A stretch of 24,759 nt of DNA, from the IMG/VR virus record IMGVR_UViG_3300030012_001199, positions 1 to 24,759 of that record. One strand, 5' to 3'. The notes beneath the pieces are model-generated. The model saw nothing but the letters and a program-made list of their open reading frames with translations, made no database searches and was not told where the DNA came from. The stretch comes from a virus. Position 1 is the first letter of the stretch. Each line of letters opens with the position of its first letter. Position numbers and translations under genes: made by a program. Positions 1,475 through 10,655 of this stretch are shown piece after piece.

Positions 1475-1665
1475 TGTTTTTGCACACGATAAACGAAGAA
1501 GAAAGACGCATCCTTAGAACGATTGTAAAGAAGGTGCATCTGAAACATCATCCAGAGCAGTTCTGCACTGACTATGAAGCAGACAAACTCATATCCATTA
1601 TTGCACCCGAAGTGGTTGAAAAGCTGATGAAAGTTGGCAAGGATATGAATATTGACAACATTTAA
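1474..1665 (+). CDS. 63-aa protein before large terminase (candidate small terminase)
   Basis: The ORF begins at ATG 1474 in a TAATG overlap and ends 14 nt inside the large-terminase gene. The product is predicted all-helical: an N-terminal basic helix (EEERRILRTIVKKVHLKHH) and a C-terminal one (EADKLISIIAPEVVEKLM). No recognised domain can be read off. By position it occupies the slot of a small terminase subunit, the DNA-recognition partner of the packaging motor (T7 gp18 is also short and precedes gp19). That is an inference from synteny; a plain hypothetical protein is equally compatible. Confidence 0.6.
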   Translation: MFLHTINEEERRILRTIVKKVHLKHHPEQFCTDYEADKLISIIAPEVVEKLMKVGKDMNIDNI

Positions 1666-3172
1666 ATACAAACCTGATGGGGAAGTACTCAAATCCTTTA
1701 TGAAGGATGATACTTTTTTCCGTGGTGTTCGTGGCCCCGTTGGTTCTGGTAAATCTGTTGGCTGTTGTGTGGAAGTGTTTCGTAGAGCATTGTCACAAGA
1801 AAAGAATGCAGAAGGTGTACGCAAGTCTCGCTGGGCAATCATAAGAAACACAAACCCACAGCTTAGAACTACTACTATCAAGACTTGGTTAGATTGGTTT
1901 CCTGAAGATACATGGGGCAGATTCCAATGGTCTGTTCCCTATACTCACCACATAAAGCAGGGTGATCTTGATCTGGAAGTAATATTCCTAGCTCTTGATA
2001 GACCTGAAGATGTCAAAAAACTACTGTCACTTGAACTTACAGGTGTCTGGGTGAATGAGGCACGAGAAATACCAAAGTCTATTATTGATGCATGCACTAT
2101 GAGGGTGGGTCGTTTTCCATCTATGAGAGAGGGTGGCCCCACTTGGACAGGAGTGATTGCAGATACTAACGCACCAGAGGAGGATCATTGGTGGCCTATT
2201 ATGTCGGGGGAAGTGCCAATACCAGACCACATAACCGCAGACGAGGCAAAAATGTTGGTGGCTCCCGACAATTGGAAGTTCTTTACACAGCCAAGCGGAA
2301 TGGAAGAAGTAAAAGACGAGGACGGATCAATCATCGAATACCAACCAAACACGAGTGCAGAAAATCAAAAAAACCTATTGGGGACGTATTACTCGAATCT
2401 GATACAGGGCAAGACGAAAAGCTGGATAGACGTATATGTGATGAATCGCCTTGGAACTATTAATGAAGGCAAGCCTGTTTACCCAATGTGGGTAAGTGAT
2501 ACACATATATCCAAAGAAGAAATACCAGTTGCCGCAGGGTTGCCAGTATATGTAGGACTAGACTTTGGACTTACACCAGCCGCAGTATTTGGTCAGTGTG
2601 TAAGAGGTCGTTGGTTGATACTGCAAGAGATTGTAGCTTTTGACATGGGTATTGTTAGGTTTGCAGAACTGTTGAGGCAGGAAATAGCAACCCGATATTC
2701 AATGTGTGAGGTTAATATTATTGGTGATCCAGCAGGTGACTTCCGCGCACAAACGGATGAAAGTACTCCATTCCAGGTGTTGCGTGGTGCAGGGCTTACT
2801 GCAAGACCAGCACAATCAAATGATGTTGCACTGAGGATTGAAGCAGTAGCTGGCACATTGAATAGAATGGTAGAAGGTCAGTCAGGTATACTTGTAGACT
2901 TTAGATGCAAAGAACTTATCAAAGGATTTGAAGGTGGGTATGGATATCGGCGTATACAGGTATCAGGTGAACGCTATGATGATAAACCAGATAAAAATAG
3001 ATTTTCACACATACATGATGCTTTACAATACTTGATGCTGGGTGGTGGAGAAGGAAGGCATGTGCTTGGACGTAAATCAGTAGCTAAACCTGTTACACTG
3101 CGTAGAGACTTTGATATCTTCACAAGGAAAGAAAAAAAGGCTAAAACTAGTAATTGGTCAAGGATGATGTAG
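1652..3172 (+). CDS. terL: Terminase large subunit (DNA packaging ATPase/nuclease)
   Basis: A 506-aa packaging motor that pumps DNA through the portal and cuts concatemers. The start is TTG 1652, supported by AAGGA at 1639-1643 (8-nt spacing) and by the conserved N-terminus (TFKYKPDGEVLKSFMKDD). Walker A is GPVGSGKS at residues 28-35. A Walker B-like strand ends in VWVNEARE (132-139), with Glu136 the likely catalytic acid. The C-terminal nuclease half shows acidic motifs GLDFG (Asp304), IIGDPAG (Asp359) and HIHDALQY (Asp456). Length and motif order fit T7-like terminases. It overlaps the previous ORF by 14 nt, suggesting coupled translation from a non-ATG start, and is followed by the portal-proximal genes. 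Confidence 0.93.
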   Translation: MTTFKYKPDGEVLKSFMKDDTFFRGVRGPVGSGKSVGCCVEVFRRALSQEKNAEGVRKSRWAIIRNTNPQLRTTTIKTWLDWFPEDTWGRFQWSVPYTHHIKQGDLDLEVIFLALDRPEDVKKLLSLELTGVWVNEAREIPKSIIDACTMRVGRFPSMREGGPTWTGVIADTNAPEEDHWWPIMSGEVPIPDHITADEAKMLVAPDNWKFFTQPSGMEEVKDEDGSIIEYQPNTSAENQKNLLGTYYSNLIQGKTKSWIDVYVMNRLGTINEGKPVYPMWVSDTHISKEEIPVAAGLPVYVGLDFGLTPAAVFGQCVRGRWLILQEIVAFDMGIVRFAELLRQEIATRYSMCEVNIIGDPAGDFRAQTDESTPFQVLRGAGLTARPAQSNDVALRIEAVAGTLNRMVEGQSGILVDFRCKELIKGFEGGYGYRRIQVSGERYDDKPDKNRFSHIHDALQYLMLGGGEGRHVLGRKSVAKPVTLRRDFDIFTRKEKKAKTSNWSRMM

Positions 3173-3179
3173 GTGCAAC

Positions 3180-3647
3180 ATGACTGAATATACAATTCAA
3201 GGAATACAAGATCGACGCAGAGAAGTAGACAGTATTCGGAGAATGCTTGCGCGTGTGCCAATGGAGCCAGGGCTAGGCAGATTCTTTACACCAAGTTTAT
3301 TAGCAGATGCTACACAAGAATTAAATGAATATACAGCAGGTTATAATTCTCAAGTAAGAGCGCAAGAAGAAGCAATTCGAGCAGAACAAGAAGCAGAAAG
3401 AAGAAGAATTGAAGAAGAACAAAGACGACTTCAAGAGCAACAAGAAACAGAACAAAGAGAGCAAGAGTTTGGTGTACGGGATCCAGCCGATGTTCCAGGT
3501 GTTATAGAAAATAGGCGTAGACAAGCGGCTGTTGATAAAGCAAGTAGCATGGCTCTCAAAATGACAAGCCGTGCAACACGGGGGCGCAGAGGTACATCTG
3601 CTACACCGAAGCGCGGCAGAGGTTTTTTTGATAGGTATTTTGCTTAA
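3180..3647 (+). CDS. Coiled-coil virion-associated protein candidate (155 aa)
   Basis: The ORF starts 7 nt after terminase. Residues about 57-98 form a Glu/Gln/Arg-rich coiled coil (IRAEQEAERRRIEEEQRRLQ). The C-terminus is basic and ends with GRRGTSATPKRGRGFFDRYFA. The next protein ends with an equivalent tail (RRGRKSLVTG, then GFFDQYFDA), so both probably use the same C-terminal signal. In T7 the same interval before the portal holds gp6.7 and gp7.3, small ejected virion proteins; from memory gp7.3 has a basic KKSL-type C-terminus ending in Gly-rich residues. I infer an analogous minor virion or tail-assembly role. No enzymatic motif is seen. Confidence 0.7.
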   Translation: MTEYTIQGIQDRRREVDSIRRMLARVPMEPGLGRFFTPSLLADATQELNEYTAGYNSQVRAQEEAIRAEQEAERRRIEEEQRRLQEQQETEQREQEFGVRDPADVPGVIENRRRQAAVDKASSMALKMTSRATRGRRGTSATPKRGRGFFDRYFA

Positions 3648-3668
3648 TTAAGTATTAGGAATTATTAA

Positions 3669-4088
3669 ATGGCGCATCGTAGAGGGCATTCAAGTAAAAG
3701 CAGTTGGGGTAATTTTTTTGGGAGCATTTTAAAAGCCGCGCCTAGTTTGCTTTATATGGGTGCTACCTATGCATCAATTCGTGAACAATCAAAAGCGGCA
3801 AAACAAGCATCTCTAGCACAACAGCGCATACTTGAAAAAGAAGGTTTGGCATTAGACCAACAACGCGCTTCGTTAGAAAAAATTCAAGAAGAATCTGCTA
3901 GAGCAAGAGAATCTGCTGAAGAACAAAGAAAACGAGAAGCAAAAAGAATTGAAGAAGCTAAACAAGAAACCAAACAAGAAACATTAGAAAAAGATGTAGA
4001 GCGCATTAAAAGACGCAGAGGTCGTAAATCTTTGGTAACTGGACAAAAAGGTGGTCTTGGATTCTTTGACCAATATTTCGATGCATAA
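3669..4088 (+). CDS. Coiled-coil virion-associated protein candidate (139 aa), GFFDxYF tail
   Basis: Residues 1-15 are basic and His/Ser-rich. Residues about 17-35 (FGSILKAAPSLLYMGATYA) are apolar, possibly membrane-active. Residues about 40-115 form a long Lys/Glu/Gln coiled coil, and the C-terminus reads RRRGRKSLVTG then GFFDQYFDA, matching the tail of the preceding protein. The gene sits directly before and overlaps the portal gene by 8 nt. An apolar patch plus coiled coil plus conserved tail next to the portal suggests a minor protein held in the virion and ejected on infection, as for T7 gp6.7/gp7.3; this is inference. Confidence 0.72.
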   Translation: MAHRRGHSSKSSWGNFFGSILKAAPSLLYMGATYASIREQSKAAKQASLAQQRILEKEGLALDQQRASLEKIQEESARARESAEEQRKREAKRIEEAKQETKQETLEKDVERIKRRRGRKSLVTGQKGGLGFFDQYFDA

Positions 4089-5610
4089 AGAACAAACAAA
4101 AAAGTTTCTTCAAAAGTATAAAAAAGCAAAAGCAGAACGTGCGGTTTTTGAAGATTTATTTCAAGAGTGCTATGATTATGCATTACCACAAAGACGCGGG
4201 TATTATTTTGAAGCACCTGGTCAACGGCGCGATGAGCGCATTTTTGATGAAACAGCAGTAGTTGGTACACAAGAGTTTGCATCTCGGTTGCAATCTGGCC
4301 TTGTTCCAAACTTTGCACGATGGGCAGATCTTGTTTCAGGCAGTGAAGTTCCTGCAGAAGAACAAGATGAAATCAATAACAAGCTAGACGAAGTAACTGA
4401 ATATATCTTTGAGGTATTGCAGAACTCAAACTTTGGTCAAGAAATACATGAGTGTTTTTTGGATCTTGCTGTAGGTACTGCTTGCCTGATGGTTACTGAG
4501 GGTGATGCAGTACATCCTGTTAAGTTTAGTGCTGTGCCTATGCCTCAGATTGTTTTGGAATCGGGGCCAGACGATACTATTGACCATGTTTATCGTGAGC
4601 GCGAAATGCGTTATTCCGATATTCCACATGTCTACAAAAAGGCAACCATATCTACAAACCTTGCTAAGAAGATGGAGCAAGATCCAGAAGGTAAGTGCAA
4701 ACTCCTTGAGGTTGTTTGTCGTTTGTACGACAAGCCGAATGAGGAACGCTTTGGTTACTATGTGATTGAGCAACAGTCTCAGGAGATGATCTTTACTTCT
4801 GAGTTCAAGGGTGTTGGCTCTAATCCGTTTATTCCTTTTCGTTGGGCAAAAGCGGCTGGCGAAACTTATGGACGGGGGCCACTAGTCAATGCTTTGAGTG
4901 CTATTAAAACAACCAACCTTACTGTTGAGTTGATTCTAGAAAATGCTCAGATGGCTATTTCTGGTATTTATCAGATGGATGATGATGGTGTAATTAATGT
5001 TGATACTATTAATTTGGTTCCAGGCACTGTCATACCAAAAGCACCAGGTACAGGTGGATTGCAGCCAATACAACCAGCAGGTAGTTTTGATGTAGCTAAT
5101 CTTGTTCTGAATGATATGCGGTTGAATATCAAACGTGCCTTGTACAATGATATGTTAGGTGATCCTAATAAAACACCAGCAACAGCTACAGAGGTAGCTG
5201 AAAGAATGGCTGACTTGTCTCGCAGAATTGGCTCTGCATTTGGTCGTTTGATGGCTGAAATGGTTCAGCCTATTTTGCAACGTGTAGTATTTATTTTGAA
5301 AAAGCAGGGACGTATTGATCTGCCAAATGTAAATGGCAGAGAGGTAAAGGTACGTAGTGTATCACCACTTGCACAAGCGCAAGCTAATCAAGACATTGGA
5401 ACTGTAGATAGGTTTCTTGAAATGGTTGCTGTTAGGTTCGGGCCAGAAATGGTTAATATGTTGGTGAGTTCAGAGGAGGCGGCAATATATCTTGCCAAGA
5501 AGTTTGGAGTTCCAGATACATTGGTAAGAGATGAAGCAGAGCGTCAGCAAATGCAACAAATGGCGGCTATGATGCAACAGCAACAAGCGGCTCTGCCACC
5601 GCAACAATAG
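4081..5610 (+). CDS. Head-to-tail connector (portal) protein
   Basis: A 509-aa protein of the T7 gp8-like head-tail connector family (PF12236). It would form the ring at one capsid vertex through which DNA is packaged and to which the tail is attached. Diagnostic segments are the N-terminal KKFLQKYKKAKAERAVFEDL, DYALPQRRGYYFEAPGQ, and EFASRLQSGLVPNFARWADL, with NDMLGDPNKTPATATEVAER further on. The C-terminus is Gln/Met-rich (QQMQQMAAMMQQQQ), as often seen in this family. The frame is open upstream to a GTG at 4051, but ATG 4081 gives the normal N-terminus and overlaps the previous gene by only 8 nt. It abuts the next ATG without a gap. Confidence 0.93.
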   Translation: MHKEQTKKFLQKYKKAKAERAVFEDLFQECYDYALPQRRGYYFEAPGQRRDERIFDETAVVGTQEFASRLQSGLVPNFARWADLVSGSEVPAEEQDEINNKLDEVTEYIFEVLQNSNFGQEIHECFLDLAVGTACLMVTEGDAVHPVKFSAVPMPQIVLESGPDDTIDHVYREREMRYSDIPHVYKKATISTNLAKKMEQDPEGKCKLLEVVCRLYDKPNEERFGYYVIEQQSQEMIFTSEFKGVGSNPFIPFRWAKAAGETYGRGPLVNALSAIKTTNLTVELILENAQMAISGIYQMDDDGVINVDTINLVPGTVIPKAPGTGGLQPIQPAGSFDVANLVLNDMRLNIKRALYNDMLGDPNKTPATATEVAERMADLSRRIGSAFGRLMAEMVQPILQRVVFILKKQGRIDLPNVNGREVKVRSVSPLAQAQANQDIGTVDRFLEMVAVRFGPEMVNMLVSSEEAAIYLAKKFGVPDTLVRDEAERQQMQQMAAMMQQQQAALPPQQ

Positions 5611-7839: not shown

Positions 7840-8427
7840 ATGACATCGACAGCCTCAAACTCAGCTATAGATATTTGTGCAAGGGCTTTGATCCTCATTG
7901 GAGCAGAGCCTATTACGTCATTTGATGATGGAACAACAGAATCATTAGTAGCTGTAAATATGTATGAGGATATTGCACGAACTAACTTGTGTTCTTCACG
8001 ATGGCGGTTTGCAACAGAACAAAAGCAAGTCAGCGAACTTACAGAAGAACCCACAGGCAGGTTTGATAGAGCGCATCAATTACCTAGTGACCTTCTTATG
8101 CTTCATGCATTAACAGTGAATGACATTGTTTTTGAGTACCAGGTCTATGGTGACAAAGTATTTTCTAATGCTAGTAGCAATGAAGTAGTTATTGCAGACT
8201 ATACATTTCGTGCATTAGAAATTAGCTGGCCTTCATATTTTACTATTGCTGTTGAGTATGCAATGGCGGCGGTTTTTGCTGGCAGTATTGCTAGAGATCC
8301 AAATTTGATTCAACTTATGGAAAGCAAGTATGATATTGCTATGAGAAAAGCAAGATCACTGGATAGTCAGCAACAGACATCTCGAAAACTTGCAACATCG
8401 AGGTTCGCGGCTGAAAGGAGAAGTTGA
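7840..8427 (+). CDS. Tail tubular protein A-like head-tail adaptor
   Basis: A 195-aa protein matching T7 gp11-type adaptors. The hallmark is the N-terminal helix AIDICARALILIGAEPITSF, then YEDIARTNLCSSRWRFATEQ, the conserved tract in which the chain returns along the connector ring. A middle FDRAHQLPSDLLML segment and a C-terminal helical stretch (ESKYDIAMRKARSLDSQQQ) also fit. It would assemble beneath the portal and bind the nozzle. The gene is followed by the nozzle gene with a TGATG overlap, and begins just after a hairpin with no separate ribosome site. Confidence 0.88.
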   Translation: MTSTASNSAIDICARALILIGAEPITSFDDGTTESLVAVNMYEDIARTNLCSSRWRFATEQKQVSELTEEPTGRFDRAHQLPSDLLMLHALTVNDIVFEYQVYGDKVFSNASSNEVVIADYTFRALEISWPSYFTIAVEYAMAAVFAGSIARDPNLIQLMESKYDIAMRKARSLDSQQQTSRKLATSRFAAERRS

Positions 8428-10655
8428 TGCAAAGGATAAAGATTCCTATCAACAGCTTCGAGTTTGGTGAACTAAGCCCTTCTTTTACTTCTCGTGTTGA
8501 TACAGAGGTATACAAAGCAGGTGCCAATACAATCAAAAATCTTACAATTCTTGGCGAGGGTGGTGTAAAAAAACGTCCTGGCACAAGTCGAATTGCGGCT
8601 TTTAGTAGTCCAGCAGTATCTACTGGCAGATTAGAATTACGTTTAGAACCATTTATTTTTTCTGATGATGAACGATATATTTTTGCTTTTAGTAATGCTC
8701 GTTTAGAAATATTCCAAATTAATCCTACTACTGGTGCTGTAACTAGTATTCAAACAATTACTCAAGACGTTGATTCTGCCGCTTTGCCGTGGACAACAGC
8801 GCGTCTTGAGCAATTTACTTATGCAACTAATGGTGACTTTATGTTTGTCTGTCACTCAGAGTTTGCAACACGAAATATTGTAAGAACAAGTTTAACTACA
8901 TTTCAGGTAGAAACATTTGAATTTGATACATTTGCAGGGAATACAAAAGTTGCTCAACCATATTATGATTTTCAAAGTGAAGGCATAACAATAACACCAT
9001 CAGCGACTAGCGGAACAGGTGTTACGCTTACTGCTAGTGCATCATATTTTGAAAGCAGTCATGTTGGATCATATATTAAAATACATGATACTCACTGTGA
9101 AATTACAGGTTTTACGAGCGCAACAGTTGTTACGGCAACAGTATACGGCACTATACGAAAGCAACTTTCGATTGATCCTTTCCAAACAAGTAATGGCAGT
9201 GATCGAGTTGTTGTTACGCACCCTGCTCATGGTTTATCAGCAAGTACCTCTGTTACTATTGATCGTGCTGATACTGTCGGGGGCATTTCTGCAAGCAATC
9301 TCAATGGCTCTAGGACAATTGCTGAAATACTTGATGACAATACTTATGAAATTACAGCAGGTGGTACAGCAAATTCGAGCGCAATAGGTGGTGGTGCGCC
9401 ACGAATATCTAGCACAGCGGCTACAAGTGAGTTTCAAGAGCAGAGTTATTCTACTGTTAGAGGGTTTCCGCAAGCTGTTACATTCCATGAAAATAGATTG
9501 TGGTTTGGTGGAACGCCATCTCAACCCGATTTTATTTGGGGATCACAATCAGCAAAGTATTTTAACTTTGATATTGGAAATGCACTGGATAACCAAAGCA
9601 TTGAAATCAATGGTGGCTTTGGTGCGTTTAGCCAGGTTAAACATTTAGTATCTAACAGAGACTTGCAAGTATTTGGCACATCATCCGAATCATACGTACC
9701 TGCACTTACTGAACGCCCTATTACACCGACAAATGCACAAGTAAAACGACAAACAGCTTTTGGTGCGGCAGATCTTAAACCACAAGCATTTGATGGGACT
9801 ACAATATATCTACAGGCAAATGGTAAGATGGTAGGTTCTTATCTCTACAATGATGCCGAACTTGCATACAATACAAGCAATATTGCAGTAACAGCACCAC
9901 ATCTTGTAAAGAATCCAACACAAGCAACAGTATTGCAGGGCGGGTTTAGTAGACCAGAAAGTTACATTTATTTTGTAAACCCAGATGGAACACTTAGTAC
10001 GTTTTATTCATTGAGGTCAGAACGCAAAGCAGGGTGGGCGCAATGGTCAACATCAGGCAAGTTTCATAGCCTGTGTTCTGTAGGTCAACGATTGTTTGCG
10101 GCAGTGCAAAGAGATAATGGATCAGGTTCTAATGCTTACTACTTAGAAGAAGTGCTAGAAGATATACCGATGGATTACTCAAAAGAGTATTCAGGATCCA
10201 GTGGTGTGTTTACTGTATCTGGTGAGTTTGCAAATGGCGCAACAGTAAAAGTTGTAAGTGGTACAGACTTTTTAGGTGAGTTTACTGTTGCTGGTGGAGA
10301 GGTAGATGTATCAGCAGTTAAGTCAGTTTCATCTGCTTATATTGGCTATCAATTTGATGTAGAGCTTATCACATTGCCTATAGATGCTAATCTTGCAACA
10401 GGTGTGATGACTAGTGACCCAAGACATATTGTTATGGTTACATTGGATTTGGTAGATACATTGTCTGTATCAGTAAATAACAAAGATCTTGTGATACGTT
10501 CAGTAACAGATGACTTTTCGTTGGCTCGTCCTAAGTTTAATGGTCGGAAAGAATTTAGGTTACTTGGATATAATCAAGATCCTAAAATTACTATTTCTCA
10601 GGATGTTCCATTTGATTTACAAATAAATGGCATGGTTATTGAGGTTATTGTGTAA
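8427..10655 (+). CDS. Tail nozzle protein (tail tubular protein B-like)
   Basis: A 742-aa protein from ATG 8427 (AAGGAG at 8415-8420, 6-nt spacing; the TTG three bases earlier is a frame extension). The N-terminus INSFEFGELSPSFTSRVDTE, then YKAGANTIKNL and LGEGGVKKRPGTSR, is the signature of a broad family of podovirus tail proteins that follow the adaptor gene. Further marks are FPQAVTFHENRLWFGGTPSQ and a beta-rich remainder. By length and place it corresponds to T7 gp12 (about 794 aa), the hexameric tail tip that opens for DNA release. The functional equivalence is inferred from synteny. Confidence 0.84.
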   Translation: MQRIKIPINSFEFGELSPSFTSRVDTEVYKAGANTIKNLTILGEGGVKKRPGTSRIAAFSSPAVSTGRLELRLEPFIFSDDERYIFAFSNARLEIFQINPTTGAVTSIQTITQDVDSAALPWTTARLEQFTYATNGDFMFVCHSEFATRNIVRTSLTTFQVETFEFDTFAGNTKVAQPYYDFQSEGITITPSATSGTGVTLTASASYFESSHVGSYIKIHDTHCEITGFTSATVVTATVYGTIRKQLSIDPFQTSNGSDRVVVTHPAHGLSASTSVTIDRADTVGGISASNLNGSRTIAEILDDNTYEITAGGTANSSAIGGGAPRISSTAATSEFQEQSYSTVRGFPQAVTFHENRLWFGGTPSQPDFIWGSQSAKYFNFDIGNALDNQSIEINGGFGAFSQVKHLVSNRDLQVFGTSSESYVPALTERPITPTNAQVKRQTAFGAADLKPQAFDGTTIYLQANGKMVGSYLYNDAELAYNTSNIAVTAPHLVKNPTQATVLQGGFSRPESYIYFVNPDGTLSTFYSLRSERKAGWAQWSTSGKFHSLCSVGQRLFAAVQRDNGSGSNAYYLEEVLEDIPMDYSKEYSGSSGVFTVSGEFANGATVKVVSGTDFLGEFTVAGGEVDVSAVKSVSSAYIGYQFDVELITLPIDANLATGVMTSDPRHIVMVTLDLVDTLSVSVNNKDLVIRSVTDDFSLARPKFNGRKEFRLLGYNQDPKITISQDVPFDLQINGMVIEVIV

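Follow-up and report, generated by a model that had tools for sequence, protein, structure and literature searches.

Two adjacent genes of the window, by which we mean the whole 24.8-kb stretch of viral DNA analysed here, encode proteins (A and B) that differ in their bodies and end in the same peptide, which poses the question of what this shared tail is for and on which partner it acts. The gene order is that of a T7-like podovirus, running from the terminase large subunit (TerL) through A, B, the portal, a Bbp19-like protein, the scaffold, the capsid protein, the adaptor and the nozzle to the internal virion proteins, and the source of A and B is a short-tailed marine virus of bacteria. The features on which the analysis bears are the following:

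1652..3172, + strand: TerL, the upstream border of the interval, assigned from its position and the annotation of its relatives (Pfam returned no domain)
3180..3647, + strand: protein A, 155 amino acids, a helical body followed by the shared tail (ORF, homologues L006-L014, AlphaFold)
3579..3644, + strand: tail with which A ends, residues 134-155, RGRRGTSATPKRGRGFFDRYFA (conservation in the family, low pLDDT)
3669..4088, + strand: protein B, 139 amino acids (ORF, homologues, AlphaFold)
4011..4085, + strand: tail with which B ends, residues 115-139, RRRGRKSLVTGQKGGLGFFDQYFDA (conservation in the B family, codon changes)
4081..5610, + strand: portal, the head-tail connector (PF12236, E 1.7e-98)
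7840..8427, + strand: tail adaptor, T7 gp11-like (phrog_394 "tail protein", E 2e-32)
8424..10655, + strand: tail nozzle, T7 gp12-like (phrog_376 "tail protein", E 7e-115)

The ATG start codon of the portal at 4081 overlaps the end of B (GATGCATAA) by 8 bases (4081-4088), an arrangement that suggests coupled translation and by which the residues after GFFDxYF in B are fixed. At the other border of the interval, the 63-amino-acid protein encoded at 1474-1665 is conserved and overlaps the TerL start in many relatives as well as in pelagiphage Hodr; it has no match in Pfam, and its position would suit a small terminase-associated protein. Many relatives, and Hodr as well, also encode upstream of TerL the basic protein with KSQRSLLSWGKQKWRTKSGKPSTQG (1217-1474), which likewise has no match in Pfam. 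The small protein MAKGVPHFKRDGSLFKGKTHK...HLKELP (848-1036) has a clear relative, MAKSVSHYLKDGTKYSGGTHK...HFSELP, located in locus L064 between the tail proteins and the portal, hence this gene has moved relative to TerL.

A shared tail on two different proteins

Both ORFs are present as the original prediction had reported, with RGR-x(10)-RGxGFFDxYF-like C-termini that amount to a common tag of 22-25 residues. Their likeness is beyond chance, as the last 30 residues of A and B gave a local alignment score of 57 and the best of 2,000 shuffled pairs reached 45. The bodies do differ, as had also been claimed, and are related by a weak coiled-coil-like match alone (score 68 against a shuffle maximum of 60). 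In the AlphaFold models the body of A is mostly helix (residues 6-24, 38-97 and 108-132), and B consists of a hydrophobic N-terminal PSLLYxGA segment, a single long helix (residues 12-123) and the shared tail. The latter is unfolded in both models, and its low pLDDT in A indicates that it has no fold of its own, as would be expected of a peptide that becomes ordered on a partner. The FFDxYF residues are encoded by TTT TTT GAT AGG TAT TTT in A and by TTC TTT GAC CAA TAT TTC in B, and the use of different codons for identical tail residues argues against a recent DNA duplication. Searches with A and B in Pfam, PHROGs and NCBIfam and by tblastn in named phages returned nothing specific; matches of A/B-like coils to spanins, tape measures and flagellar proteins were taken as coiled-coil noise.

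The original prediction had made its case depend on conservation of the last 25 residues in homologues, and these turned out to be the best conserved part of both proteins: pairwise identity over the last 24 residues is 73% in the A family and 79% in the B family, against 31 and 45% in the respective bodies. Codon changes follow the same trend, with 2-9 synonymous and 1 nonsynonymous between the tail of B and each of four close relatives, and 5-14 synonymous and 3-5 nonsynonymous between the tail of A and its close relatives. The tail is built from a basic patch, a Ser/Thr-Leu step, a Gly-rich turn and an aromatic end; the basic patch occurs in nearly all members, and the uncharged part (Ser/Thr-Leu, Gly-Gly-x-Gly-Phe-Phe/Tyr) is conserved at least as well as the basic one.

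Occurrence between TerL and the portal

A tail profile was searched against all 4,519 six-frame ORFs of 86 loci with a related portal. It matched 112 ORFs, all of which lie shortly before the portal gene on the coding (+) strand, and none of the 4,519 outside that stretch. Some of the training tails came from these same 86 loci, so that the positive count leans upward, while the absence elsewhere is independent of this. At least one tail protein was found in 69 of the 73 loci having both TerL and a portal (one in 41, two in 26 and three in 2). These loci are redundant and fall into 16 portal clusters at 95% identity, of which 10 have one, 4 have two and 2 have three tail proteins. The four loci with no match are L027, L029, L030 and L041, yet each of the 16 portal clusters includes at least one locus with a match, and an eroded form of the tail (SFFGGYLKG) is present in L029 and L030. 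The tail proteins themselves form 50 clusters at 80%, with bodies of 70-247 amino acids. Among the long bodies (L025, L040, L053 and others) a common internal AGxDPRT(I/V) motif was observed, even in tandem copies with different N-termini.

To look further afield, a profile made from the window-type tails alone was run on the 976 ORFs of 19 named-phage loci. The best scores were those of Hodr (E 6.7e-8), HTVC028P (1.4e-4) and Lederberg (6e-4, protein Lederberg_23), then BcepC6B (0.028), and each of these genes lies between TerL and the portal. HTVC028P and Lederberg belong to a separate pelagiphage lineage in which, as for A and B, two adjacent tail proteins with different bodies occur in 68 of 80 loci; the pairing is thus found in at least two podovirus lineages. 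The tail pattern also appears in epsilon15, BPP-1 and BcepC6B, mostly in proteins of PHROG 831, annotated as "unknown function", whose members include epsilon15 gp3, Lederberg_22, Lederberg_23 and, weakly, BPP-1 bbp22. Proteins of PHROG 831 resemble A and B in being encoded just upstream of the portal, by one gene or more, and in their C-terminal GRxSTxLTGxxG, but past the Gly turn they have a second conserved end, K-x-LLG, where A and B have GFFDxYF, and neither A nor B matched the PHROG 831 model at E <= 0.1. PDB searches with epsilon15 gp3, Lederberg_23 and the Flu_PA14_3 protein retrieved no solved relative, and we found no description in the literature placing epsilon15 gp3 or bbp22 in a virion. 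In passing, we noted that positions 34567-35178 of NC_023841.1, deposited as "Dunaliella viridis virus SI2", encode part of a podophage portal; the entry may be a phage that was assigned to an algal host.

What is new is how widely the tag occurs and that a single phage uses it on several proteins. Our literature search, of incomplete coverage, yielded no description of the shared tail, and an earlier one may exist. The observation itself stands, and it indicates a general rule.

Relationship to T7 gp7.3 and LUZ19 gp29

The parallel with T7 gp7.3, drawn in the original prediction, was borne out by the deposited genome, in which gp7.3 is encoded shortly before gene 8, the portal gene, and has the C-terminus GGKKSLSVARSSGGGINI. 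Among the relatives whose role has been explained, gp7.3 is the closest. Its last residues (84-98, GKKSLSVARSSGGGIN) have been solved within the tail channel, at the junction of nozzle and adaptor, where six copies clasp neighbouring nozzle (gp12) subunits, each copy being anchored to two adjacent nozzle proteins, and where K84/K85 touch the DNA end (PMC11784390; PDB 9jyz). The authors of that structure suggest that gp7.3 is a scaffold for seating the nozzle and propose that it is the first to leave; gp6.7 and gp7.3 are ejected together and degraded in the host afterwards (PMC11784390).

Like A and B, T7 gp7.3 is small and encoded just upstream of the portal, in a genome with the same type of adaptor and nozzle as the window, and it combines a variable body with a conserved basic, Ser-Leu and Gly-rich C-terminus; its relatives also keep a constant tail and vary in the body. 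In the tail profile search, gp7.3 of CHF7 (E 0.058) and of T7 (E 0.21) took two of the first three places among ORFs that did not belong to the training set. When the tail profile was aligned with a profile of gp7.3 tails, the two were in register (P 0.002-0.005), with GRKSLVTGQKGGLGF aligned to GKKSLSVARSSGGGI, and none of 400 column shuffles reached the alignment score. The two tails have some 15 residues in common, simple in composition, and single-search E-values are 0.06-0.2, so that the likeness is suggestive of common descent rather than proof of it. A and B matched neither of the gp7.3 family models, PF11653 (VirionAssem_T7) and PHROG 1320, both of which T7 gp7.3 itself matches, and a search of PDB sequences with the tail profile did not retrieve gp7.3, giving instead chance matches, mostly to dinucleotide-binding enzymes (GRxxLVTGxxGGxG). 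Further differences are that A and B are two proteins with longer helical bodies, and that their GFFDxYF end has no close counterpart in the GGGINI end of T7. A and B are set apart from the gp7.3 family in that its models do not match them and in that one phage can have two or three tagged proteins. T7 has one such tail per phage, so that in the present case two or three proteins would have to be accommodated on six sites.

LUZ19 gp29 is another protein encoded immediately upstream of a portal, with a coil-like body, a basic patch and a Gly-rich C-terminus, classified as "virion structural protein" (PHROG 3112), annotated as "phage particle protein" and named "tail channel protein" in PDB 9s0y, a structure for which we found no paper. 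The tail profile did not match it directly, and its link to A and B runs only through intermediate PHROG families (Lederberg, PHROG 831, Flu_PA14_3, PHROG 4893, LUZ19 gp29), a chain that may lean on coiled-coil residues.

Candidate docking site of the tail

The original prediction took the tail for a docking signal acting on the portal or capsid. The docking role gained support from the behaviour of the tail as a docking element, its conservation and the gp7.3 parallel, which is clear in position and modest in sequence; the choice of portal or capsid did not, since the tail of gp7.3 was solved on the nozzle, and by this comparison the nozzle-adaptor junction is the more likely dock. We consider it probable, by analogy with T7, that A and B are minor proteins of the short tail, in each of which a body that is variable and mostly helical is followed by a docking peptide at the C-terminus. 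As in T7 gp7.3, the peptide would bind at the junction of nozzle and adaptor, between adjacent subunits of the nozzle, with the window nozzle (8424..10655), the putative gp12 equivalent, as predicted receptor, and the adaptor (7840..8427), the putative gp11 equivalent, as part of the site. The basic patch would contact the packaged DNA at its end, with the bodies extending along the DNA within the portal-tail channel; A and B would thereby aid the seating of the nozzle on the adaptor and be the first to leave on tail opening. Two or three proteins of a phage carrying the same peptide probably share, alternate at or stack on one ring of sites.

The main rival keeps the dock of the original prediction: the tail would bind within the head, either to the portal barrel or to the internal core, and A and B would be core or ejection proteins comparable with T7 gp6.7 (PF17570). 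That protein is also small, comes from the same gene interval before the portal, is ejected with gp7.3 and is situated between portal barrel and core (PMC11784390), and the long helix of B would fit a core protein. We nevertheless regard this placement as unlikely: the contacts resolved in the virion between gp6.7 and the portal barrel and core involve N-terminal and central residues (2-15 and 34-50) rather than the C-terminus (PMC11784390), gp6.7 matches A and B neither over the whole protein nor in the tail, and the tail profile, which retrieves gp7.3 weakly, does not retrieve it. The N-termini of many 70-amino-acid tail proteins (MCxxxxPxxP) look slightly gp6.7-like by eye, but an N-terminal profile made from them failed to retrieve gp6.7 and this connection was abandoned.

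Less probable still is that the tail mainly binds the DNA end, its basic patch retaining in the channel the DNA that was packaged last, and that the remainder has no specific partner. The near-universal basic patch and the position of gp7.3 K84/K85 on the DNA end (PMC11784390) are in line with this reading; charge alone, though, does not explain why the uncharged part is so well conserved. We give the least credence to a role after ejection instead of in assembly, with the tail as a leader or sorting signal for host membrane binding or as a breakdown tag. The aromatic end and the fate of T7 gp6.7 and gp7.3 in the host would agree with it, but the corresponding T7 segment is ordered on the nozzle before ejection (PMC11784390), and related tails occur in phages of Pelagibacter, Salmonella, Bordetella and Burkholderia, which points to a virion partner rather than a host partner.

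Returning to docking at the nozzle-adaptor junction, a bolder version can be put forward tentatively. The tail may be a modular loading tag of the podophage tail channel, able to seat whatever body it is attached to at the nozzle-adaptor ring for first delivery to the host. Two or three species would then occupy the six-fold ring together, forming a plug that is mixed or stacked, and tagged proteins may have multiplied and diversified accordingly (one to three per genome, 70-247 amino acids). If true, many genes of "unknown function" beside podophage portals (PHROG 831 and the unnamed families described here) would fall into a single class whose position in the virion can be tested, and the assorted small proteins known from T7 and LUZ19 would be instances of a single rule. 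Sequence alone would then mark the first-delivered infection proteins in abundant marine phages, and the peptide would be a candidate tag for loading other proteins into the tail channel of short-tailed phages.

The 70-72-amino-acid proteins (L066, L084, L085 and similar) and epsilon15 gp3 share an N-terminal M-C-x(3-6)-P-x-x-P motif that is conserved separately from the tail and may be a second docking site.
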